Source: a virus. Taken from it: a stretch of 38,936 nt of DNA. This document shows positions 2,611 to 29,801 of this stretch, piece by piece. The notes beneath the pieces were generated by a model. That model was not told the origin of the DNA, did no database searches, and was given only the letters and a program-made list of their open reading frames with translations. The DNA is taken from positions 1 through 38,936 of IMG/VR virus record IMGVR_UViG_3300042400_000116. The stretch is one strand, 5' to 3'. The stretch's first letter is position 1; the number at the start of each line of letters is the position of its first letter. The translations under genes and the position numbers were made by a program.

Positions 2611-3597
2611 ATGGCCGTACAAAATTCCGTTCGTTCCTATGTGGGTATCGCTAAAGAAGTCACAAAGGGAACACCAGTAGCAGCAACAGATTATTTATTA
2701 TTATCCAAAGACGCCTTCAAGCCAGTAGATGTGATTGACCCACTCTACGATAAAGGCTTACGCGGTGCTATGGTTGAAAACTACAACTACATTCCTGGAC
2801 GTACTCGCTCTACTGTTGATTATGGTGGCGCAGTATTCGCCGATGGAATTGGTTATGGACTAACTGGCATTATGGGTGCTTGCGCTACTGTAGGCGCCTC
2901 AGCCCCATTTACACATACAATCTCATTGAAGAACAGCCTCGCTGCTTCAACAGATGTTCAGCCACTTTCATATACAATTACTGATTTCTATGCGGCTGGT
3001 GTTCGCTATTATCCAGCGCAGCAAATCACAGACTTCTCATTGAAGTTCAACGCTGATGGTATGTTGGAATATGACATGAAGTCTATGGGCTTCGCTTCTT
3101 CTACAACTACAGCACCAACTCCAACTTTCAGCACACTACTTCCTACTCCAGTATGGCAGGGAACTGTATCTATTGGTGGAACTGCTATCACTAATGCTAT
3201 GGAAGGAACGATTTCAATGAAGCGTTCTTCTGAAGCAATTTATGGTATCTCTCAAACACAGAACCCATTCTCAGTATTCGTTGGTGCGCTAGAAGTTACT
3301 GGCAATATCAAGTTCGTTATGGAAGCAGACACAGAACTTACACGCTACCTAACAAACACTCAGCCAGCGATTGTCCTTGACTGGGCTTACGGCGCAGGTG
3401 CGGCAGCAGTACAGATTCAAGCAACTATCTCTGATGGTGCTTATACAGCAGCAGCAATCGAACGCTCAGACGATTATGTAACAATCACAATAGACCTAAA
3501 TGCTATTGGTAATTCAACAGACGCAGGTGCTTCTGGTGGATTCTCCCCAATTAAATGGGTCTTAAAGAACGCAAAGGCTTCTGGTACTTATATCTAA
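2611..3597 (+). CDS. Major tail tube protein
   Basis: The 328-residue product starts MAVQNSVRSYVGIAKEVTKG, a typical tail-tube start for the Phage_tube_2-type family: a glycine-rich N-terminal strand, then TPVAATDYLLL. Much of the protein is beta-strand, with repeated segments such as YGGAVFADGIGYGL. It polymerises as rings to form the tail tube. It has a strong ribosome binding site (CAGGAGAG) and is followed by a long perfect hairpin terminator, consistent with high expression. It precedes the tail chaperone and tape measure genes in the standard order. Confidence 0.85.
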   Translation: MAVQNSVRSYVGIAKEVTKGTPVAATDYLLLSKDAFKPVDVIDPLYDKGLRGAMVENYNYIPGRTRSTVDYGGAVFADGIGYGLTGIMGACATVGASAPFTHTISLKNSLAASTDVQPLSYTITDFYAAGVRYYPAQQITDFSLKFNADGMLEYDMKSMGFASSTTTAPTPTFSTLLPTPVWQGTVSIGGTAITNAMEGTISMKRSSEAIYGISQTQNPFSVFVGALEVTGNIKFVMEADTELTRYLTNTQPAIVLDWAYGAGAAAVQIQATISDGAYTAAAIERSDDYVTITIDLNAIGNSTDAGASGGFSPIKWVLKNAKASGTYI

Positions 3598-3712: not shown

Positions 3713-4069
3713 ATGGCAAGTAAGACAGTTAAGTTACCTAGTGGCGCAGAGGTAGTCCTCAAAGACCCCAAGACACTACGCGTTCGTGACCGCAAGAAGG
3801 TATTCGAGCAAGCAAGTAATGCTAAAGAAGGAATAATGCAGGCTCTTTCTTTGAGCGATGGCTTGCTTGCTATTCTCATTGAATCATGGACACTTGATTT
3901 CATTATCCCTTCTGTCCGTATTGAGTCTATCGACGAAATGGAAATGGCTGATTACGACTACTTGACAGAACAAACTAAAGACGCTCAAAAGGTTCTGTTC
4001 CCTTCATTAAGTCAAACTGATGAATCAGAAAAGAATCCTGAAAGCCCTTTCGAAAACTCCAAAGATTAA
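3713..4069 (+). CDS. Tail assembly chaperone, unshifted form (gpG-like)
   Basis: This 118-residue protein starts after a GGAAGG ribosome binding site. It has an N-terminal beta segment (KTVKLPSGAEVVLKDPKTL), a helical core, and an acidic, Ser/Glu-rich C-terminus (TDESEKNPESPFENSKD) of the sort found at the end of gpG-type chaperones. These chaperones coat the tape measure protein during tail assembly and are absent from the mature virion. The frame contains a slippery heptamer six codons before the stop, giving a longer G-T form (next entry). The position between tail tube and tape measure is diagnostic. Confidence 0.85.
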   Translation: MASKTVKLPSGAEVVLKDPKTLRVRDRKKVFEQASNAKEGIMQALSLSDGLLAILIESWTLDFIIPSVRIESIDEMEMADYDYLTEQTKDAQKVLFPSLSQTDESEKNPESPFENSKD

Positions 4070-4263: not shown

Positions 4264-4654
4264 ACAAGTACGTCAAGCCTTAGAGAAGGCTGGACAAGGA
4301 CTTGACGACAGCGCGCGTAATTGTCGTGATGAAATGATGAACACTTTGATTCAGTTATCTAAAGAAGAAATCGTAGGAAGACGACCTAAAGGACAGAAGG
4401 CTACATCGGGGCAGCCACCTATGAACAGAACAGGTAATTTGCGCCGTTCTATTCGTGGCGAGAAGTATAAAATTGGATTTGGTAAGTACGAAGCGATAGT
4501 TGGACCTACAATTATCTATGGTCGTAGAGTAGAATTGGGTGGTGGAAACTGGCCAAGCGGCACACGCTTCCCTTACATGGCACCTGCTTACGCTAAGTTC
4601 CGTGTAATCGCACCTACAATTATCAGAAAACATTTAGCGATTGGTGGTAGATAA
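4244..4654 (+). CDS. HK97 gp10-like neck/tail-completion protein
   Basis: This 136-residue protein has an N-terminal helical segment (KQVRQALEKAGQGLDDSARNCRDEM) and the family-typical stretch PPMNRTGNLRRSIRG, followed by a Gly-rich beta segment ending in PYMAPAYAKF. These match HK97 gp10-like head-tail proteins. The GTG start lies inside the end of the frameshifted chaperone, and its stop overlaps the tape measure start. Its place after the chaperones is unusual, since this family normally lies between connector and tail terminator. Confidence 0.72.
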   Translation: MITSNLKQVRQALEKAGQGLDDSARNCRDEMMNTLIQLSKEEIVGRRPKGQKATSGQPPMNRTGNLRRSIRGEKYKIGFGKYEAIVGPTIIYGRRVELGGGNWPSGTRFPYMAPAYAKFRVIAPTIIRKHLAIGGR

Positions 4655-7600
4655 TGGCGGGATTTTTACCACCAGCCATATTTGAAATCAAGGCTGTCGC
4701 TGATGACGCTATCGCAAAGTTCAAAGATGTTAATAATGAACTCGAAAAGATGGACAAGAAATCCCAAGACGCTGGCGGTTCCGTATCAAAATTAGATGGT
4801 GCTAGTCGTATTGCTACGGCAGGTTTACTTGCTATGGGTGCTGCTTTCGTGGGCTTCGCTGCTGTAGGTATAAAGGAAGCAAACGAGTCTGAACAAGCAT
4901 TGAACAAACTCGGTGTCACTATGGCGAACGTTGGAGTTAATACTGACGCGAACCGAGCAAAGGTAGAGAAACTCACCGACTCTTACGAAGGGTTAGGCTT
5001 CGGCAACGAGGAAGCGGCTGCTGGCTTTGACATCTTATTGAGAGCAACTGGCAGTCTAACTGCTTCGCAAGATTTACTTGCTCTCTCAGCAGACTTCGCG
5101 CGTACAAAGAATATGAGTTTAGCAGACGCTTCAAGAATCATGGCTAAAGCAGGACAAGGCTCAGCCAAAGCATTTAAGGAAATGGGTATATCGTTAGATA
5201 CAACTATTCCTAAATCTGAAGCAGTCGCAAAAGCGATGGACGAATTAAAGGTAAAAATTGGCGGTCAGGCTGTCGCTTATACTGAAACTTTCCAAGGAAA
5301 GTTAGCAGTTCTGAAAGAGGAAATTGGTTCGGTTGCTGAAAAACTAGGCGCGACAATTATTCCAATGCTAAAGAACTTAGTAACTGGCGTCAAAAATGCT
5401 ATTACGTTTATCGGTAAACATAAGACAGCATTCACTATTCTGGCTGGTGCGATAGTAACTGTTATGGTCGCGCTCGCTTCCTATAACGCAGCGGTAAAAG
5501 TGTCTATGGCATTGACTAAAGCGTGGACAGTCATAACAACGATTCAAAAAACAGTAACGGCTTTGATGACAGGGCAACAATTAGCACTCAATGGTGCTAT
5601 GGCATTGAATCCTATCGGCTTGGTTGTTGCTGCTGTCGTATTACTTATCGGTGCTTTCGTTTTGCTGTGGAACAAGTGTGAGCCTTTCCGCAAGATAATG
5701 ATTGATATTGGCAAGGTTGGATTGAAAGCATTAGGCGGTCTTATTTCAATCGTTGGACTTCTTGCTACTGGTTTACTTAAAATCGTTCTTGGACCAATGA
5801 AGTTACTATTGAAGGGTTTATCCTTACTTGGCGTTGATGCTGCTGGTACAGCACTCAAAGGAATTGAGAAAGCGACTGATGGCGTAGGCAAGTTCTTTGA
5901 TGGCGCAGCAAAGAAAGTTAATGAACTTGCTGGTGGATTAGATAAGTTCAACAAGCCAATTAAACTTACTTTCGGCGCGATTAAAATACCTGATATCCCA
6001 AACGTTGAAGGCGGTGACGACGGTGGCGGTACTTCAGGACTTTCAAAGGCTGACGCGAAGAAAGCCGCTGACGCTAAGAAAAAAGATAACGAAGGTTACA
6101 TGAAAATTGTTGCTGACTTAACCAAAAAAGTTGGCGCAGCAAAAGAAAAGTTTAACGAAACAATGGAAAGTCTTGAAAAAGACCATGCCAAAAATATCAT
6201 ATCAATTAACGCTAACGCTACTGCTGAGATTGCCTCTCTCACTAAAAGTCATGAAGCGAAAATTGCTAAACTCAATAAAGACGCACATGAAAAACGAGGC
6301 AAGTTAGCGGCTGACGCTGCCAAGAAGATACTTAAATTAGAAACAGATGCTAAGAATAAAATTGTTGAACTTGAATCTGCGTCTAAAGAAAAGGTTCTAG
6401 CAATACAAGAAGATTTCAATAACAAGATGGCTGACCTTAATAAGAAGAAGTCAGAAGATTTAGCCAAACTTGAACTTGATAATCAAAAGAAAATTGAAAG
6501 CATTACTAAACAGGGTGCTGCCAATCTAGCCTCTATCGTCAAGCAGTCTGTTGATCGTTTACGCGACGCTTATGCTAAGGGAACTGAGTTCAAGTTAGGT
6601 GATGTATTCAAGGGCTTGAAAGAAAGCGGTTCTCAAAGCGCAGATGGATTGCTAGCCTCTATGAAGGCAAAATTATCTGCTGCTAAAAATCTTGCTGAAA
6701 ATGCTGCGTTTCTTCAGGCTAACGGATTCTCTCAAACATTTATTGAAGAAGTGGTGGCTGCTGGTCCAGATGTAGGTAATCAGTTAGCGGAGTCCATACT
6801 TAATGCTTCACCTCAAACTATTAGTGAATTACGCTCCTTGTATAATGAGATTGAAACACAATCCTCGACTGGGCTAGACGCGCTTGCTAATTCAATGAGT
6901 ACGGGCGCACGTCTAGCAACAAGCGAATTGACTAAGGCTTACGCTGATTCACAGAAAGATACTGCTGACGCGCTGGCAGCACAGGCACAAGATTATGTAA
7001 ACTCACAGGCGGAAATCTCTAAGGTCTTTAGCGAAACTATGGGTCAGGCTGAAAAAGACAGAGATACCGCGATAGCGCAAGCGCATAAAGACTTAGCGGA
7101 TTCTATAACTGCTGTCAATAAACAATTACAAGAATCTATTGCTTCAATCAACGCTGACTTAGCGGAAGCACTTGCTCAGGTAGATAGCGACTTGGCTGAA
7201 GCCATCGCTGAGGAAAACGCGGCATTCGCTGAAGCGTTACTAGAAATACAAACCAACCTTGATACTGCGTTGTCAGACGAAATGATTGCGTTCGCCGAGA
7301 AACAAGACGAAGCGCGCGAAGCATTAACAGAAGCGTTAGACGCAATTCAAGCAGAGTTTGAAGAGAAGTTAGGCAAGATAAAAAACGCTACTAAGTCTAC
7401 AACTACTGCTATAAATGCTATGGTCAAAGCGTTAAATGCTGCTAGGGATTTAGCAGCGAAGCCTATGCCTACTCCACCGATTGTTACCCCGCCAGTTCTA
7501 GGTGCTGGTGCTATTAAGACTGGCGCAATTACTAATGACGAATACAATAAAGAAAGCGGTGGCGGTGCTGGTGGTGGCGTTAAAGTAATTGTGAATGCGC

Positions 7601-13150: not shown

Positions 13151-13369
13151 ATGACCGCAGTTGATTGGGCAGCATTAGCAGTATCAGTAAGCACACTTAT
13201 CGGTGCGCTCGCTATTGCTGTTCGCTTCTTAACGAAACAATTCTTGTCTGAATTGAAACCGAATGGCGGTTCAAGTTTGCGTGACGAGGTCAATAGACAA
13301 AGCGACGCAATCAAGCGTCTGGAAAACAGATTGGATTCTATATACATCATGCTAATGGACAAAAGATGA
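13151..13369 (+). CDS. Small membrane protein with coiled coil, lysis-region (holin-like)
   Basis: The 72-residue protein has one membrane segment (about residues 5-28) followed by a charged helix with heptad pattern (about residues 43-68, SLRDEVNRQSDAIKRLENRLDSIY). Its stop overlaps the endolysin start (ATGATAG). Location and shape suggest a holin or holin modulator. The related holin-like gene at 13836 makes a two-component holin system possible. Ribosome binding site is GAAGGGG. Confidence 0.62.
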   Translation: MTAVDWAALAVSVSTLIGALAIAVRFLTKQFLSELKPNGGSSLRDEVNRQSDAIKRLENRLDSIYIMLMDKR

Positions 13370-15946: not shown

Positions 15947-15976
15947 TTGTCATAGGACAGTCTGACCCTGTATACT
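15947..15976 (+). promoter_or_regulatory. Probable early promoter (TTGTCA-N18-TATACT)
   Basis: TTGTCA at 15947-15952 and TATACT at 15971-15976 are each one base from the sigma-70-type consensus, with an 18-nt spacer. Transcription would start near 15983. It is the best promoter seen in the window and drives the non-coding leader and the early operon. An 8-base palindrome GGCGCGCC at 15927-15934 lies 12 bases upstream of the -35, and CCTTGTCA occurs twice (15945 and 15980). Confidence 0.7.
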
Positions 15977-15982
15977 TAACCT

Positions 15983-16379
15983 TGTCACACGCGGTTGGGG
16001 TATAGCCAAGGCTAGCCGACCAGAGTGAAAAAAGACAAGGTCAGGTTAGCAAATCTGGTGAACGGATTGAATCATTTAAATCCCTAGGGAATTCAATTCG
16101 GTGACAGAAATCTAATGCTCACTTAATTACATAGAGGGAGTCAGATAGTCAAGATTGCTTACCGCAATCGCCCGGCAAAATAAATCGACGATTACCACAG
16201 ATCTAGTGGGTGGATACTAAAGCGCGAAGACGATATCAAGAAGTATGTTTGATATTCGAGCGAGTGAAACTTAAAGTCCTGTCGCAACGAGAATAAAAGT
16301 CAAGGGCTATGACGAACTACTTCAAGCAAATAAAAAATTATTGAGAACGAAACATCGTGTCACTAAAAGGCACGATGTC
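15983..16379 (+). ncRNA. Structured leader RNA, about 400 nt, with ribozyme-defined 3' end
   Basis: No gene with a plausible start and ribosome binding site fits between 15860 and 16431. The segment begins at the promoter and ends at the cleavage site of the first hammerhead ribozyme (after C16379). It is rich in pairing: GCTAGCC 16011-16017 with GGTTAGC 16044-16050, and ACCAGA 16019-16024 with TCTGGT 16054-16059, which together form an H-type pseudoknot. Others are a 10-bp stem 16063-16072/16091-16100, GATTGC/GCAATC 16153-16158/16164-16169, and an 8-bp stem 16232-16239/16249-16256. ACCTTGTC 15979-15986 could pair with GACAAGGT 16034-16041, though it starts at or before the predicted transcription start. 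I do not recognise a known RNA family. Its 5' boundary is inferred. Confidence 0.6.
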
Positions 16380-16417
16380 CTGCCGTAATCGCGGTGGCTG
16401 ACGAGTTCAGATAATTT
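16335..16417 (+). ncRNA. Type II hammerhead ribozyme, copy A
   Basis: All core elements are present in type II order. GAAA is at 16349-16352. Stem III is 10 bp (16352-16361 with 16369-16378, one wobble), followed by the cleavage site GTC ending at C16379. Stem I is CTGCCG/CGGTGG (16380-16385, 16392-16397) with loop TAATCG, then CTGACGA at 16398-16404. Stem II is open: GAAC/GTTC (16345-16348, 16405-16408), an internal loop TGA/AG, and a 7-bp distal helix AAATTAT/ATAATTT (16335-16341, 16411-16417). It lies 14 bases before the ATG at 16432. Cleavage releases the upstream leader RNA. Confidence 0.9.
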
Positions 16418-16431
16418 GAAGGGTAATTCAA

Positions 16432-16608
16432 ATGACAACACAAGATATCAATCGCATGTTCAATTACGACTACACATTGAACACCAGAGAAAAGATTCTG
16501 GTTCACATCGCACTACTTGCTTTACAGACTTCTGTTTCTAAAGGTGAAACTGCTTTGCTAGTTTCCACTACTGAAATTGGCGACCTAGCAGATAAGTTCG
16601 CAAAATGA
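16432..16608 (+). CDS. Small protein (58 aa), first gene of the early operon
   Basis: This 58-residue frame has GAAGGG 8 bases before its ATG and follows the first hammerhead ribozyme. The sequence is mainly helical (TREKILVHIALLALQTSVSKGETALLV) with an acidic end. Its stop overlaps the next start (ATGA). The mRNA made by ribozyme cleavage would begin about 52 nt upstream of the start codon. The function is unknown. Confidence 0.75.
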   Translation: MTTQDINRMFNYDYTLNTREKILVHIALLALQTSVSKGETALLVSTTEIGDLADKFAK

Positions 16609-16823
16609 ATACAACTACAAAAGATATCAAGAAAGACTTCAAATACGCTAGGTCGTTAATGAAGTATGCCAAGACAATGTTAGATGAAACTAACATCACC
16701 GATTATTCAGAAGGAAGTGAAATCGGTCAGATAGCAAATGAGTTAGTCGCTTCCGTATCAACACTCACTGCTTATTTAGAAGAAAAGCGTGAGGAAATCC
16801 GACTAGCAAATCAAAACGCGTAA
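16605..16823 (+). CDS. Small helical protein (72 aa), hypothetical
   Basis: The 72-residue product is Lys/Glu rich and almost entirely helical, with NELVASVSTLTAYLEEKREEIRL at the C-terminus. It is coupled to the preceding gene by an ATGA overlap. Its stop codon TAA (16821-16823) lies inside the internal loop of stem II of the second hammerhead ribozyme, so a terminating ribosome would cover that ribozyme's 5' strand. Function unknown. Confidence 0.75.
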   Translation: MNTTTKDIKKDFKYARSLMKYAKTMLDETNITDYSEGSEIGQIANELVASVSTLTAYLEEKREEIRLANQNA

Positions 16824-16880
16824 TGGCGAAACTCCTTCGGGAGTCTTGCGGTGACTACCGCAACTGACGAGCCAATCGTT
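16815..16880 (+). ncRNA. Type II hammerhead ribozyme, copy B
   Basis: GAAA is at 16828-16831. Stem III is ACTCC/GGAGT (16831-16835, 16840-16844) closed by a C(TTCG)G tetraloop, with GTC cleavage after C16845. Stem I is TTGCGGT/ACCGCAA (16846-16852, 16857-16863) with a four-base loop. CTGACGA is at 16864-16870. Stem II starts TGGC/GCCA (16824-16827, 16871-16874); a distal AACG/CGTT helix (16815-16818, 16877-16880) can form beyond an internal loop that contains the stop codon of the upstream gene. It lies 21 bases before the ATG at 16902. Confidence 0.92.
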
Positions 16881-16901
16881 AGCAACATGAAGGGTAAAAT
16901 C

Positions 16902-17387
16902 ATGACAACAGAAAATACAGTTACAACCGAAGCACCTACTCCACAGCAAATCGCTGAGGACTTCGTTAAGGAACACTCAATCAATGATGTTGTTGAACAC
17001 TTGCTTGATGACTACAACACGATAGAGCGTTTGAAGCAGCGACTACAAGAGGAATCAAATGGTCGTGATATTTTGCGGGCTAACCTGCGCGACAAGATGG
17101 AAATTGTCGAAGAGTTCCTGAAGTCACATATCGGGGAAGGTGATTCCGCTAGCGTTGATGAGTTAAAGGAGTTAGCGGAAAGCCTTGATATTGAAATGAC
17201 TAAGGAAGTGGAAATTACTTTCACCGTTGAAGTTACTGCTACCGCGACAGTTCCGCTTGACTTTGACCCTAATAAGTTTGATGACTCAGACTTTGATGTG
17301 AGGGTTGAATACACAGGTGACTTCACTGATGTTGATTGTGAAGACATTGACTGGAACCTTGAAGGCTTTGAAGCAGACGAGAAGTAA
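16902..17387 (+). CDS. Acidic early protein (161 aa), hypothetical
   Basis: I place the start at the ATG at 16902, which has GAAGGG 7 bases upstream; upstream in-frame starts would lie within the ribozyme. The N-terminal half is helical (QQIAEDFVKEHSINDVVEHLLDD, then a coiled coil to about residue 100). The C-terminal half is beta-rich and strongly acidic (VEITFTVEVTATATVPLDFDP, DFTDVDCEDIDWN). Such acidic proteins can mimic DNA or bind basic host proteins, but no family is recognised. Confidence 0.75.
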   Translation: MTTENTVTTEAPTPQQIAEDFVKEHSINDVVEHLLDDYNTIERLKQRLQEESNGRDILRANLRDKMEIVEEFLKSHIGEGDSASVDELKELAESLDIEMTKEVEITFTVEVTATATVPLDFDPNKFDDSDFDVRVEYTGDFTDVDCEDIDWNLEGFEADEK

Positions 17388-17399
17388 GGGAGATAAATC

Positions 17400-17612
17400 A
17401 TGTCAGATAAACTGCTGAAAACTGGCGTTGTCTATGACGCTAATAATCTAACTATCACGTTAGACCGTTCTAAATCACGATACTGGCTACTGGAGTGGTG
17501 GTTTGATGGTAAGAAATCAAAGCGTCACACCAGAGCCTATGAAGAATACGTGAACGCCATCGTTCATGTAGATGAACTAATCGAAACTCACACGAAGGGT
17601 AGAAAAGCATGA
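17400..17612 (+). CDS. Small basic protein (70 aa), hypothetical
   Basis: The 70-residue protein has a strand-rich N-terminus with TLDRSKSRYWLLEWWFDGKKSK, followed by a helix (EEYVNAIVHVDELIETHT). The shape resembles a small AP2- or integrase-N-type DNA-binding sheet plus helix, but the match is only impressionistic. It follows a GGGAGATAAATC ribosome binding site and overlaps the next start (ATGA). Confidence 0.68.
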   Translation: MSDKLLKTGVVYDANNLTITLDRSKSRYWLLEWWFDGKKSKRHTRAYEEYVNAIVHVDELIETHTKGRKA

Positions 17613-17725
17613 TTCAAACATATACATGTCCAAAGTGTAAAAGAACTTACAACGACCCAGATAATACATTGAGTTATTTCCATTCCTGTTCAAGAAAACG
17701 AAAGAAGAAGGGTGAATCAAAATGA
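17609..17725 (+). CDS. Zinc-finger miniprotein (38 aa)
   Basis: This 38-residue frame encodes TCPKCKRTY, then FHSCSRKRKKK, a C-x2-C...H-x-C arrangement for one zinc ion followed by a basic tail. It overlaps both neighbours with ATGA-type junctions, so it is part of a tightly coupled set. A nucleic-acid-binding role is plausible from the basic tail. Confidence 0.7.
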   Translation: MIQTYTCPKCKRTYNDPDNTLSYFHSCSRKRKKKGESK

Positions 17726-17826
17726 TGTGGTACACAGAAATAGTGCTTGATAATTGCGCCAAGTGCGATAAGAAATCAGTTCCAGTCAAAGATGGTCTTT
17801 GTCTAACTTGTAGAAAAGAAGGGTAA
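17722..17826 (+). CDS. Zinc-ribbon miniprotein (34 aa)
   Basis: The 34-residue frame contains two CxxC pairs (NCAKCDKK and LCLTCRKEG) with an 11-residue spacing, a minimal zinc ribbon. It begins four bases before the end of the previous zinc-finger gene, whose end carries its ribosome binding site (GAAGGG). Function unknown. Confidence 0.7.
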   Translation: MMWYTEIVLDNCAKCDKKSVPVKDGLCLTCRKEG

Positions 17827-17832
17827 ATCAAA

Positions 17833-18075
17833 ATGAAAGACTATACATACATAGCAATTCAGCAGGGCGGTTACTTCAGCGAAGGTTGTATCAGGGCTGG
17901 CTTCATAAAAGCAGGTGATTCGTGTGTGATTGAGTTTCGTCAATTCACGAAGTTCATGAACGAGGGAGAAATTACAAGACCCTTATTCATCTCATCTGAT
18001 TATGGAGTGTGTATCAGAACCGCTCAGCAGTTAAATCAGTCGGCGTTTGAAATACAGAACGGAGTGTCGGCATGA
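17833..18075 (+). CDS. Small early protein (80 aa), hypothetical
   Basis: The 80-residue product follows a GAAGGG ribosome binding site 9 bases upstream. It is predicted beta-rich, with YTYIAIQQGGYFSEGCIRAGFIKAG and a short C-terminal helix. It overlaps the next gene by four bases (ATGA). No family is recognised. Confidence 0.7.
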   Translation: MKDYTYIAIQQGGYFSEGCIRAGFIKAGDSCVIEFRQFTKFMNEGEITRPLFISSDYGVCIRTAQQLNQSAFEIQNGVSA

Positions 18076-18272
18076 AAGACTCACTTCACTATTTAGTTCG
18101 TTGTGAAGTTTGTGACTGGGAAAGCCGTAAATCAATTCGTTTGACTGACGCTCAAAGAATCAGAGATGGACACAGAATGTCTAACGCTAACTGTGAGGGC
18201 GGCAGGTTATACGAGTTACTGGTTGAAGATAATGAAGTTCACCTTATACCGATGGGGAGTCAAAATGTTTGA
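18072..18272 (+). CDS. Small zinc-finger-like protein (66 aa)
   Basis: The 66-residue protein has CEVC at residues 11-14, then a histidine in DGHRMSNANC, an arrangement C-x2-C...H-x5-C of the kind seen in small actinophage zinc proteins. The C-terminal strand LYELLVEDNEVHLIPM completes a compact fold. It overlaps the following gene by eight bases. Function unknown. Confidence 0.7.
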   Translation: MKDSLHYLVRCEVCDWESRKSIRLTDAQRIRDGHRMSNANCEGGRLYELLVEDNEVHLIPMGSQNV

Positions 18273-18621
18273 ATCAGAAATCAAAGTAGGCGTTCGTGTT
18301 ATTGACCCAACGCTTAAAGTAACCTACACATGGGTTAAAGGTCATAACTCCGTGTGTTCAATGTGCGGTTTTCCTAGTCCATTATTCTTAATGGAAGATG
18401 AAGCAATCGTAAATAATTTCGGTGACATGTATCGCGGTAAATACTGTCAGGACTGCGCTGGAATAAAAGACCTTCAAGTTATCGTCAAGAGTTCATCTGA
18501 TTGCGAAAACTGCGGTGAGAAAGCAACAGTTTACGCGATGGATACTTGCGCTGGGGGTTGGGGTGGTCGTTATTGTAATTCCCATATCCCGAAAGGCTTC
18601 TTCGTTTCAGACAGACTGTGA
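18265..18621 (+). CDS. Multi-cysteine zinc-binding protein (118 aa)
   Basis: The start is the ATG at 18265, with GGGGAG 7 bases upstream. Four metal-type clusters are seen: CSMCG, YCQDC, DCENCG and YCNSHI, enough for two zinc sites. The first N-terminal 25 residues form a strand pair. The stop codon TGA (18619-18621) forms the internal loop of stem II in the third hammerhead ribozyme. Function unknown. Confidence 0.75.
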   Translation: MFESEIKVGVRVIDPTLKVTYTWVKGHNSVCSMCGFPSPLFLMEDEAIVNNFGDMYRGKYCQDCAGIKDLQVIVKSSSDCENCGEKATVYAMDTCAGGWGGRYCNSHIPKGFFVSDRL

Positions 18622-18679
18622 GAACGAAACTGCCTTCGGGCAGTCGCGAAGTAATCGCTTCGCCTGATGAGTTCATCAG
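18616..18679 (+). ncRNA. Type II hammerhead ribozyme, copy C
   Basis: GAAA is at 18626-18629. Stem III is ACTGCC/GGCAGT (18629-18634, 18639-18644) with a C(TTCG)G loop, and GTC cleavage falls after C18645. Stem I is GCGAAG/CTTCGC (18646-18651, 18658-18663) with loop TAATCG, identical to copy A. CTGATGA at 18664-18670 is the textbook core. Stem II is GAAC/GTTC (18622-18625, 18671-18674), an internal loop with TGA on the 5' side, then CTG/CAG (18616-18618, 18677-18679). It sits 18 bases before the ATG at 18698. Confidence 0.93.
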
Positions 18680-18697: not shown

Positions 18698-19687
18698 ATG
18701 GCTGATAACATCGAAAAGTTCGATGATGGTTCGGCTGCGTTCGTTTCCGCAAGGGAAGTGGCGTGGCACAAACTCGGTACAGTTACCGAGGGTTCTTTAA
18801 CTGCTCAGGACGCGCTAGAAATTGCGCAGTTAAACTGGAAAGTGAAAGTCAGCGAGAATCATATTCAGACCGAGGTTGATGGTCAGACTATCTCGCTTCC
18901 TAACAAGTTCCTCACATACCGCAATCACCCGAAAAAGGGTTTAGCGGCATTAGGCGTGGTTGGCAATCGCTATACACCTATTGACAATTCAGAGGCGTTT
19001 GATTTCTTGAACGTCTTAGCAGATGAATCAGGTGCGGTATTTGAAACTGCTGGTTCGCTTGGAAATGGTCAGCGTGTCTTTATGACAATGAAGTTCCCCG
19101 ATTCAATGACACTCGGTGGCGTTGATGTTGTTGATAATTACATTATGGCTGTCAATAGTCACGATGGTTCGTCAGCCTTCGTGGTTGCCGTTACTCCAAT
19201 TCGCGCAGTATGTACCAATACTGTTCGGTTGGCATTAACTCAAGCGAAGTCAAAGATATCGCTGAAGCACACTTCAGGCGCGACTGCCAAAGTTCAGCAA
19301 GCGCGTGAAACTCTGGGTATCGTGTGGAAGTATCAAGAGGCGTTTCAACTTGAAGTTGAATCACTACTGTCACAGAAGTTCACCGACAACGACTACAAGA
19401 AGTTCGTTGAAGTGCTTATTCCAACTCCACGAAATAAAGACGCTACTCAACGCCAGTTGAACTCTGTGGAAAATAAGCGCGGTGAACTTATGTCACTCTG
19501 GGCATCACCTACGCAACAGATTGTTGCTAATACGAAGTGGGCAGCATACAACGCTGCCGTTGAGTGGGCTGACTGGATTAAGTCTGTTCGTGGTTCTGAT
19601 GACAAAGAGGAACTTCGTTCAGAACGTCTGCTACTCGGTGGGGCTGAGAAGTTCAAAGCGAAGGCTCAGTTACTTCTGTCTAAATAA
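18698..19687 (+). CDS. DUF932 family protein
   Basis: The 329-residue protein belongs to the DUF932 (phage/plasmid-like, TIGR03299) family: WHKLGTVTEGSLTAQDAL near the N-terminus, YTPIDNSEAFDFLNVL, then SHDGSSAFVVAVTPIRAVCTNTVRLAL, and a C-terminal helical domain ending in a long Lys/Leu helix. The family is frequent in phages and plasmids, and its biochemical role is not settled. Its mRNA would begin 52 nt upstream of the start codon at the cleavage site of copy C. The ribosome binding site is GAAAGGG. A complex RNA hairpin follows the gene. Confidence 0.88.
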   Translation: MADNIEKFDDGSAAFVSAREVAWHKLGTVTEGSLTAQDALEIAQLNWKVKVSENHIQTEVDGQTISLPNKFLTYRNHPKKGLAALGVVGNRYTPIDNSEAFDFLNVLADESGAVFETAGSLGNGQRVFMTMKFPDSMTLGGVDVVDNYIMAVNSHDGSSAFVVAVTPIRAVCTNTVRLALTQAKSKISLKHTSGATAKVQQARETLGIVWKYQEAFQLEVESLLSQKFTDNDYKKFVEVLIPTPRNKDATQRQLNSVENKRGELMSLWASPTQQIVANTKWAAYNAAVEWADWIKSVRGSDDKEELRSERLLLGGAEKFKAKAQLLLSK

Positions 19688-19698
19688 TCAACAGGATT

Positions 19699-19785
19699 GT
19701 GCGCCTCTTAGACCGATTCATTTCCCGATAAGGGTAAAGGGTTAAGCCCTAAAGTGAAAACGGCTCTAAGGGGCGCACAGCCCCT
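19699..19785 (+). ncRNA. Structured RNA element after DUF932 (branched hairpin)
   Basis: GTGCGCCTCTTAGA (19699-19712) pairs with TCTAAGGGGCGCAC (19765-19778) over 14 bp with one wobble, extended by CCG/CGG. A second stem TTCATTT/AAAGTGAA (19717-19723, 19752-19758) encloses two small hairpins (CCC/GGG 19724-19726/19732-19734 and AGGG/CCCT 19738-19741/19747-19750). An alternative hairpin AGGGGC/GCCCCT (19769-19774, 19780-19785) uses the 3' strand and excludes the long stem. The gap 19688-19896 has no convincing gene. This may be a terminator, a switch or a stable RNA. Confidence 0.6.
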
Positions 19786-19809
19786 AAATCCACGCCTACT
19801 TAACGGCTC

Positions 19810-19873
19810 GGCGCGCCTGATTATTGACACAGGGTTAAACTGTAAAATGACATCGTGGACGAAGGCTCCACGA
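19810..19873 (+). promoter_or_regulatory. Possible second early promoter and 5' leader hairpin
   Basis: The palindrome GGCGCGCC (19810-19817), also seen before the promoter at 15947, is followed by TTGACA (19824-19829) and TAAAAT (19843-19848). The spacing is only 13 bases, too short for a standard promoter, so this call is weak. A 7-bp hairpin TCGTGGA/TCCACGA (19853-19859, 19867-19873) follows. A 16-codon frame (19847-19897) overlaps the next start codon as TAATG and could be a leader peptide. Confidence 0.35.
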
Positions 19874-19896
19874 GTTACACAATCGAAAGGCAAATA

Positions 19897-28287: not shown

Positions 28288-28926
28288 ATGGAAGCATTAT
28301 CAGTAGAGATTGATTCACTTAAAGAGTTCCCTAATAATCCACGCATGGGCAACGTCAAAGAGTTAATCGAATCGTTAAAGCACAACGGACAATACAAACC
28401 TATCGTTGTTCAAGAATCAACAGGATTTATTCTGGCTGGCAATCACTTATGGAAAGCAGCAAAAGAATTAGGCTGGACTGAAATATCAGCAGTTAAAATT
28501 GACGTAGATGATTTACAAGCAAAAAAGATAGTCGCAACCGATAATCGGTTAGCAGACCTTGGCGCTTACAATGAATCAGCGTTGCTTGAACTGCTTGGCG
28601 AAATTGATTTACAAGGAACAGGATATGTTCCACAAGACATTGATGATTTACTAGCGATGATTGAAGAAAAGCAAGTTCCAGAATGGAAAGTTGCTGGCGC
28701 AGAAGGCGTACATGAAAATGTTGCTATTCGCCCATCACTTGAAGAACGCGCTGATAAATACGCTGAGCGAACCATTCGCTTACTAATGGCTGAATATCCA
28801 AATCACCAATACATCTGGATTGTTGAACGCTTGTCAGAATTGCGCGATAAGTATGGTTCCGAAAGTAACGCTGATACAATTTTACAGGTCGTATCAGAAG
28901 TCACAGGGATTGAATTTCCAAAATGA
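28288..28926 (+). CDS. ParB/Srx-like nuclease-domain protein
   Basis: The ATG at 28288 follows GAAAGAGG, giving 212 residues. The N-terminal 110 residues form a ParB N-terminal-like domain: SLKEFPNNPRMGNVKELIESLKHNGQYKPIVV, then GFILAGNHLWKAAKELGW. In phages such domains occur with DNA-modifying enzymes. Comparative genomics of TET/JBP systems (Iyer and colleagues) links ParB-like proteins to base-oxidation cassettes. The C-terminal 100 residues are helical. It overlaps the next gene by four bases, consistent with a joint role. Confidence 0.82.
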   Translation: MEALSVEIDSLKEFPNNPRMGNVKELIESLKHNGQYKPIVVQESTGFILAGNHLWKAAKELGWTEISAVKIDVDDLQAKKIVATDNRLADLGAYNESALLELLGEIDLQGTGYVPQDIDDLLAMIEEKQVPEWKVAGAEGVHENVAIRPSLEERADKYAERTIRLLMAEYPNHQYIWIVERLSELRDKYGSESNADTILQVVSEVTGIEFPK

Positions 28927-29801
28927 TTGATTTACCAGTAGTTGAAGTAACGCGCGTACTTGGCAAGAAAGAAGCCAAAGAAGCCAGAGGGTTGCTTGTT
29001 CCTGATATAGAAGCGAACATTACTCAGGCTGGTATTTACGTTGATGCTGAAACTAAAGAACCTTTCTTGGTGTATATGCCAATGCCTGAAGGTAGCGTTG
29101 CGCCTTTACGCGCAGCAGTTAGAAATATCAAATACAGCAAGGCTGGCGTTACACGTCAGCAATTAGGTATTGAAAATGCTTCACGCACTTTCGGTATGGC
29201 TCCGCGCAAACCATTTCAAACGCGCGAAAGTTGCCGACCTACCGCGCTGTCTTATGAGCAGAAAACTGAACATGATGTATTAGTTGAAACAGCAGACATA
29301 CTTGCTGATTTAATGCGTGAAGTCGCGCCTGAGGTATATGACAAAGATGTTGAAACTACAGGCGAAGTATTACAAGAGTGGCGAATTAGCGAACGCTCGT
29401 TATGGACAAGCGGTGTAGTAAATAAAACTTCAACGCTTCCGTATCATTATGATGGCAATAACTTTGATATGTGGAGTGCTATGCCAATCGTTAGACGCGG
29501 TACTCGCGGTGGATATCTTCACGTTAAAGACTATGACATAGTCCTAGATTGTAAAGATGGCTGGGTTGTATTCTTTCCGGGATTTAGATTATTACATGGC
29601 GTGACTCCAATAGCACACGTATCTAAAGACGCTTATCGTTACACAGTAGTTTATTACTGTTTGCGTGGAATGAAAGATTGCTTCACATACGCAGTTGAAC
29701 AGGCAGAAGGGGCGAAGCGTAGAACCGCGAGAGAAGTTGGATTGGCTTCAGCGGTAAAGGGCGACATACCTTTCAAGATATTAAAGAAAGTTAAGAAATG
29801 A
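28923..29801 (+). CDS. TET/JBP-family 2-oxoglutarate/Fe(II) DNA base dioxygenase
   Basis: The 292-residue protein carries the double-stranded beta-helix signature: His175-x-Asp177 in PYHYDGNN, RGTRGGYLHVKDYD, GWVVFFPGFRLLHGVTPI with His225, and Arg239 in YRYTVVYY for 2-oxoglutarate. This arrangement, and the LLHGVTPI motif, match the TET/JBP family, which oxidises 5-methylcytosine or thymine in DNA. The two following genes look like TET/JBP-associated glycosyltransferases, and a ParB-like gene precedes it. No DNA methyltransferase was found, so the target base is open: thymine, or cytosine methylated by the host. Confidence 0.8.
   Translation: MIDLPVVEVTRVLGKKEAKEARGLLVPDIEANITQAGIYVDAETKEPFLVYMPMPEGSVAPLRAAVRNIKYSKAGVTRQQLGIENASRTFGMAPRKPFQTRESCRPTALSYEQKTEHDVLVETADILADLMREVAPEVYDKDVETTGEVLQEWRISERSLWTSGVVNKTSTLPYHYDGNNFDMWSAMPIVRRGTRGGYLHVKDYDIVLDCKDGWVVFFPGFRLLHGVTPIAHVSKDAYRYTVVYYCLRGMKDCFTYAVEQAEGAKRRTAREVGLASAVKGDIPFKILKKVKK

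Follow-up and report, generated by a model that had tools for sequence, protein, structure and literature searches.

Hammerhead ribozymes arranged in series have been described in prophages. In Perreault et al. 2011 (PMC3088659), multiple prophage hammerheads flank genes or gene blocks, and the authors propose that long phage transcripts are processed to mRNAs the length of an operon or a gene; a triple array around ardA in Agrobacterium tumefaciens cleaves both in vitro and in E. coli. A 2017 review by de la Pena et al. (PMC6155905) describes the serial arrangement again and calls the role of hammerheads in prokaryotes an open question. HHphage of haloviruses HF1 and HF2 precedes an early helicase gene, 13 nt ahead of its start codon, and a transcript end has been mapped at most 3 nt from its cut (PMC3088659). 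Among other ribozyme classes, the theta (HDV-like) ribozymes of gut phages are self-cleaving and may replace host RNases, but they trim tRNA 3′ ends (PMC10879173).

Here a 38,936-base virus record (IMGVR_UViG_3300042400_000116, the whole of which is called the window) is analyzed. The record is a siphovirus by gene content, with terminase, portal, tail, lysis, recombination and replication genes, and it carries three type II hammerheads, termed A, B and C, in one operon. These probably act in cis to cut the operon transcript and leave hairpin ends, with a competing hairpin that would serve release or gating. The window follows the pattern of the clustered phage hammerheads, with several copies on one strand that flank blocks of genes. 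A preliminary description of this DNA had put the serial set forward as a novelty, a claim that has to be given up since clustered prophage hammerheads were published in 2011 (PMC3088659). In the published array that was tested there are three copies, and types I to III occur; the relatives of the window have type II only, and other lineages found here reach 9–11 copies per phage. HHphage, as far as it is described there, differs from the window set in its variant core, in the single copy described and in belonging to an archaeal virus. A literature search found no later work on phage hammerhead arrays, most subscription papers being outside its coverage.

A polycistronic phage transcript cut between genes is also seen in T7, where RNase III processes the early mRNA and leaves hairpin ends. 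That enzyme is a host protein acting in trans, whereas the RNA of the window would cut itself.

Three type II hammerheads in one operon

A strict scanner that demands the core CTGANGA, GAA-A, U-H and three stems was run on both strands, and a covariance model (below, the relatives' model) was trained on 22 relatives, with the window and its closest relative left out. The elements and their predicted cleavage sites, placed at the C17 position of the hammerhead consensus, are as follows.

16345..16408, + strand: hammerhead A, type II; strict scan, and 49.0 bits, E 5.3e-11 with the relatives' model
16345-16348 with 16405-16408, + strand: stem II of A, with an outward extension AAATTAT/ATAATTT
16349-16351, 16352-16378, 16379, 16380-16397 and 16398-16404, + strand: GAA, stem III, C17, stem I and core CTGACGA of A
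16379..16380, + strand: predicted cleavage site A, after 16379
16824..16874, + strand: hammerhead B, type II; strict scan, and 49.1 bits, E 5e-11 with the relatives' model
16824-16827 with 16871-16874, and 16831-16844, + strand: stem II, and stem III with a TTCG loop, of B
16845, 16846-16863 and 16864-16870, + strand: C17, stem I and core CTGACGA of B
16845..16846, + strand: predicted cleavage site B, after 16845
18622..18674, + strand: hammerhead C, type II; strict scan, and 64.2 bits, E 4.5e-15 with the relatives' model
18622-18625 with 18671-18674, and 18629-18644, + strand: stem II, and stem III with a TTCG loop, of C
18645, 18646-18663 and 18664-18670, + strand: C17, stem I and core CTGATGA of C
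18645..18646, + strand: predicted cleavage site C, after 18645

The core CUGANGA, GAA-A and U-H at the cleavage site are all present in A, B and C, which are the only scanner matches on either strand of the whole window; 60 dinucleotide-preserving shuffles of the window gave two matches altogether. The core pattern by itself occurs three times in the window, with 0.04 expected. Both the scanner and the relatives' model find the type II topology, with stems I and III closed by loops and stem II open. The model places A, B and C at the top; its next best match, at 13251-13303 (16.4 bits, E 0.03), falls within a predicted ORF and is regarded as a chance match. In minimum-energy folding the hammerhead is recovered for A when a longer stretch is folded, and for B and C a competing hairpin wins.

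An alignment of the 22 relatives shows 99.0% of cells paired as opposed to 70.2% in shuffles, with 86 two-sided changes (22.7 in shuffles) that are seen at 9 of the 13 pairs. This supports the observation in the preliminary description that stem sequences vary while pairing is kept. Its three type II hammerheads with their core, topology and cleavage sites, their serial arrangement, the hairpins on both sides of each cut, and the predicted cuts that yield segments of 466 and 1,800 nt are likewise upheld. By these measures, A, B and C are real type II hammerhead ribozymes.

A short-loop subtype and its spread among phages

No Rfam model matches the window at the gathering threshold, and relaxing the scans adds a single hammerhead match, Hammerhead_3 with 18.3 bits over copy C. 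The Rfam type II model, RF02276 (Hammerhead_II, threshold 37 bits), has no match in the window. The preliminary description had proposed this covariance search as a check; all three copies do fall below the threshold, which nominally speaks against them, but the test is unfair because RF02276 misses short-loop copies generally. It scores six copies in one record, L105, at 39.8–61.4 bits, above the threshold, and likewise one copy in L302; nearly all other short-loop phage copies are also missed. The window copies share topology, core and stems with RF02276 but have a short loop I, and by inspection they allow at most 3 bp between loop I and the 3′ tail, short of a pseudoknot of at least 4 bp; the long-loop copies of L105 pass. 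Thus Rfam misses the window copies because a short-loop subtype without the loop I pseudoknot is beyond the reach of RF02276.

Runs of five or more complementary bases between loop I and the tail are present in 8% of short-loop copies (5% when shuffled) and in 49% of long-loop copies (12% when shuffled). A pseudoknot in short-loop copies was considered and rejected: tails swapped within stem II classes give a mean run of 2.95 +/- 0.03, and 3.00 is observed. The pseudoknot is retained for long-loop copies only. The RF02276-recognized array of this pseudoknot type in L105 lies at 4305-4368, 4004-4067, 4690-4756, 3291-3361, 5278-5347 and 2926-2991; altogether that record carries eight type II hammerheads, all on the same strand.

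Protein searches with the DUF932 protein of the operon and the upstream exonuclease as queries gave 86 loci, which together with the window hold 46 distinct hammerheads; all are type II and on the coding strand, and no type I or III was found. At the site upstream of the DUF932 gene, hammerheads with differing stem sequences are present in L003, L004 and L006. Pattern scans of DNA added several hundred further loci; as these records overlap, counts are given on a redundancy-reduced set of 435 copies. The search patterns fixed the core and stem II and limited core position N7 to pyrimidines, so core conservation in these loci is not evidence. When long records were scanned whole, 19 of 30 had 2–9 type II copies each, grouped in one region and on one strand throughout the array records except for a single opposite-strand match in G014.

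Cultured phages carry such arrays as well. Streptomyces phage Celia (L484, MN062705) has 11 hammerheads, ten of them scanner matches and one more whose stem III is longer; Streptomyces phage Gibson (MK305891) has six and Streptomyces phage Wentworth (MH019216) five, the scanner finding five and four, respectively, with one more in each seen by eye in a short gap. None is annotated. In the Celia stretch that was read, a hammerhead is found in 11 of the 14 intergenic gaps of at least 35 nt; the hammerheads of this phage occupy the region between the right end and the DnaE gene, and some flank an OCR-like antirestriction gene. Two phages with a DUF932 homologue, Microbacterium phage Blett and Arthrobacter phage Sonali, yielded no hammerheads, and eight relative loci devoid of hammerheads gave no Rfam match to other ribozyme classes. 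A type II pattern with GAAC/GTTC was found in five contigs (L137-L141) among one-per-species prokaryote genomes and in 56 viral contig stretches, counts that appear in line with a virus-centered distribution. As far as the scanned records go, the serial hammerhead cluster is a widespread architecture.

Gene ends and the competing core-tail hairpin

The pattern searches placed no constraint on stop codons, on stem III loops or on the tail past stem II. In 168 of the 413 copies with enough upstream sequence (41%), an open frame 40 or more codons long has a stop codon that ends flush with stem II or one base into it; random AG sites in the same loci give 5.1%. A stop within six bases upstream of stem II or overlapping it is found in 285 of the 413. 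Two such fusions are in the window:

16821..16823, + strand: TAA stop of a 72-aa gene, abutting stem II of B
18619..18621, + strand: TGA stop of the gene that ends at 18621, flush with stem II of C

The median distance from the cut to the start codon is 53 nt. Stem III is closed by a UNCG or GNRA tetraloop in 172 of 243 copies (71%), with about 11 expected.

A second feature lies in the tail, where a short sequence is complementary to the core:

16407..16410, + strand: tail TCAG of A, pairing with core CTGA; weak, 4 bp
16876..16882, + strand: tail TCGTTAG of B, pairing with core CTGACGA; 7 bp competing hairpin
18674..18679, + strand: tail CATCAG of C, pairing with core CTGATG; 6 bp competing hairpin

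Core-tail pairing of at least 6 bp is found in 88 of the 435 copies and in 18 with shuffled tails. With the test anchored on the CTGA pairing alone, the base opposite N7 is A in 62 copies and G in 13 when N7 is T, and A in 4 and G in 28 when it is C (Fisher p 7e-12). With one copy per cluster the counts are 31 A and 10 G for T, and 1 A and 16 G for C (p 9e-7). Over 15 tail positions tested, mutual information is 0.269 at the partner of N7 and at most 0.091 at the others. The active fold does not explain this covariation, because N7 is unpaired in the active hammerhead. A nearest-neighbor model without tertiary terms favors the competing hairpin by 0.6 (A), 4.1 (B) and 5.4 (C) kcal/mol, and the 3′ products of B and C fold into stem I plus the competing hairpin, at -17.0 and -16.4 kcal/mol.

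A stop codon abutting the ribozyme and a tail complementary to the core were not found described in the available part of the 2011 prophage paper (PMC3088659). Both features, like the spread of the architecture, are absent from the preliminary description. The competing hairpin with its N7 covariation is absent from the hammerhead consensuses compared, and no description of it was found in the literature.

Operon layout, proposed processing and alternatives

The hammerheads divide the operon into these parts:

15957..16344, + strand: non-coding leader, releasable by cut A; its first 234 nt are conserved and structured in relatives
16432..16823, + strand: coding part of segment A-B; two overlapping small genes (58 and 72 aa), function unassigned
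16902..18621, + strand: coding part of segment B-C; seven tightly packed small genes
18698..19687, + strand: DUF932 protein gene, the first after cut C; Pfam PF06067 E 5e-59, phrog_1221 E 1.1e-91

The gene counts, two between A and B and seven between B and C, agree with the preliminary description. The leader at 15957-16190 shows 13 base pairs with two-sided changes among eight phages (alignment A2) and no Rfam match; it is a candidate for a new structured RNA with a 3′ end that ribozyme A would generate. A promoter scan around the operon gave no signal above shuffles. Within 19688-19896, after the DUF932 gene, is a long inverted repeat (gtgcgcctcttagaccg / cggctctaaggggcgcac), likely a terminator, and past it, ahead of the next gene, are TTGACA-like and TAAAAT-like boxes. 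Elsewhere in the window (28923-29801), a gene for a queuine tRNA-ribosyltransferase-like protein (phrog_6059, E 3.6e-76) adjoins a ParB-like gene, a pair that suggests 7-deazaguanine DNA modification.

Ribozyme identity, covariation, positions and the competing pairing are supported by sequence; from these we infer cleavage in cells, end protection and product release. A, B and C would cut the transcript between gene blocks with no need of a host RNase. Just past its stop codon the upstream mRNA would end in the stem III hairpin, followed by one C with a 2′,3′-cyclic phosphate, and the downstream mRNA would start with the stem I hairpin at a 5′-hydroxyl. With stop codon and Shine-Dalgarno sequence packed against the ribozyme, each mRNA would carry a complete frame between a 5′ hairpin and a stable 3′ hairpin. 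Type II is the sole hammerhead permutation with closed hairpins on both arms flanking the cut, which would explain why all copies in the relatives of the window are of this type. Once the tail is transcribed, the core CUGAYGA may pair with the downstream UCRUCAG-like tail; this hairpin would pull the core off the 4-bp stem II, which would release the product and block re-ligation, and in uncut RNA it may also limit cleavage. Product release without re-ligation is the simplest role; gating, perhaps by a ribosome at the fused stop, is possible.

Several points weigh against this reading. Cleavage in the clade of the window is a prediction from sequence, and the loop-loop contacts needed by fast hammerheads are putative in the short-loop subtype. 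The computed energies ignore tertiary contacts of the core; the competing hairpin of A has only 4 bp, and in about half of short-loop copies tail pairing is below 5 bp. In eleven of the 30 long records the ribozyme pattern is not matched anywhere, and in L005 the site upstream of DUF932 is empty; thus single sites are dispensable.

The gating role could also be the principal one, with the competing hairpin mainly holding the ribozyme off and cleavage depending on translation. A ribosome terminating at the fused stop would cover the stem II strand and GAAA, the tail would trap the core, and the transcript would stay polycistronic; without a ribosome the hammerhead would form first and cut. Stop codons that abut stem II far above chance, the conserved core-tail pairing with covarying N7, and the greater modeled stability of the competing hairpin for B and C all agree with such a regulated switch. 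But compact phage genomes would pack stops against ribozymes regardless, copy A has no in-frame upstream gene in addition to its weak competing hairpin, and tail pairing is short in about half of the copies; the switch is judged rather unlikely for this operon. As a general statement, it may be offered as a tentative conjecture that the type II hammerheads of phages act as natural conformational switches, with a conserved core-capturing tail hairpin that competes with the active fold and coupling to translation through the fused stop.

It is very improbable that the segments between cuts, with a 5′-hydroxyl and a 2′,3′-cyclic phosphate, are joined into circular RNAs by RtcB or by the ribozymes. 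The required end chemistry does follow from the hammerhead reaction, and circles are known for eukaryotic elements that bear hammerheads (PMC7761336), but stem II strands are compatible between neighbors in 2 of 14 cases in the clade of the window, with 1.8 expected by order-shuffling, and Perreault et al. sought circular or spliced products and found none (PMC3088659). A rule of orthogonal or matching stem II between neighboring copies was also considered and gave no signal in this clade.

Equally little credence is given to the idea that the copies are functionless remnants, selfish or in decay. Relatives differ by gain and loss of sites, and stem II of one L002 copy is mismatched, but the nearly complete pairing with many compensatory changes, the stop-codon fusion and the stable tetraloops stand against decay. 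A chance resemblance to hammerheads, which the lack of an Rfam match at the gathering threshold might suggest, is refuted by the independent relatives' model, with the core count, the scanner results in shuffles and the pairing statistics also opposed, and has next to no probability.

Since Rfam misses an abundant short-loop subtype, phage operons are under-annotated for these elements. If the switch were true, a phage would choose, junction by junction, whether to keep a single polycistronic mRNA or to make separate ones with hairpin caps. Cultured phages are now at hand for testing the role of hammerheads, and the data point to one general role, in which hammerheads would punctuate phage operons at the ends of genes.

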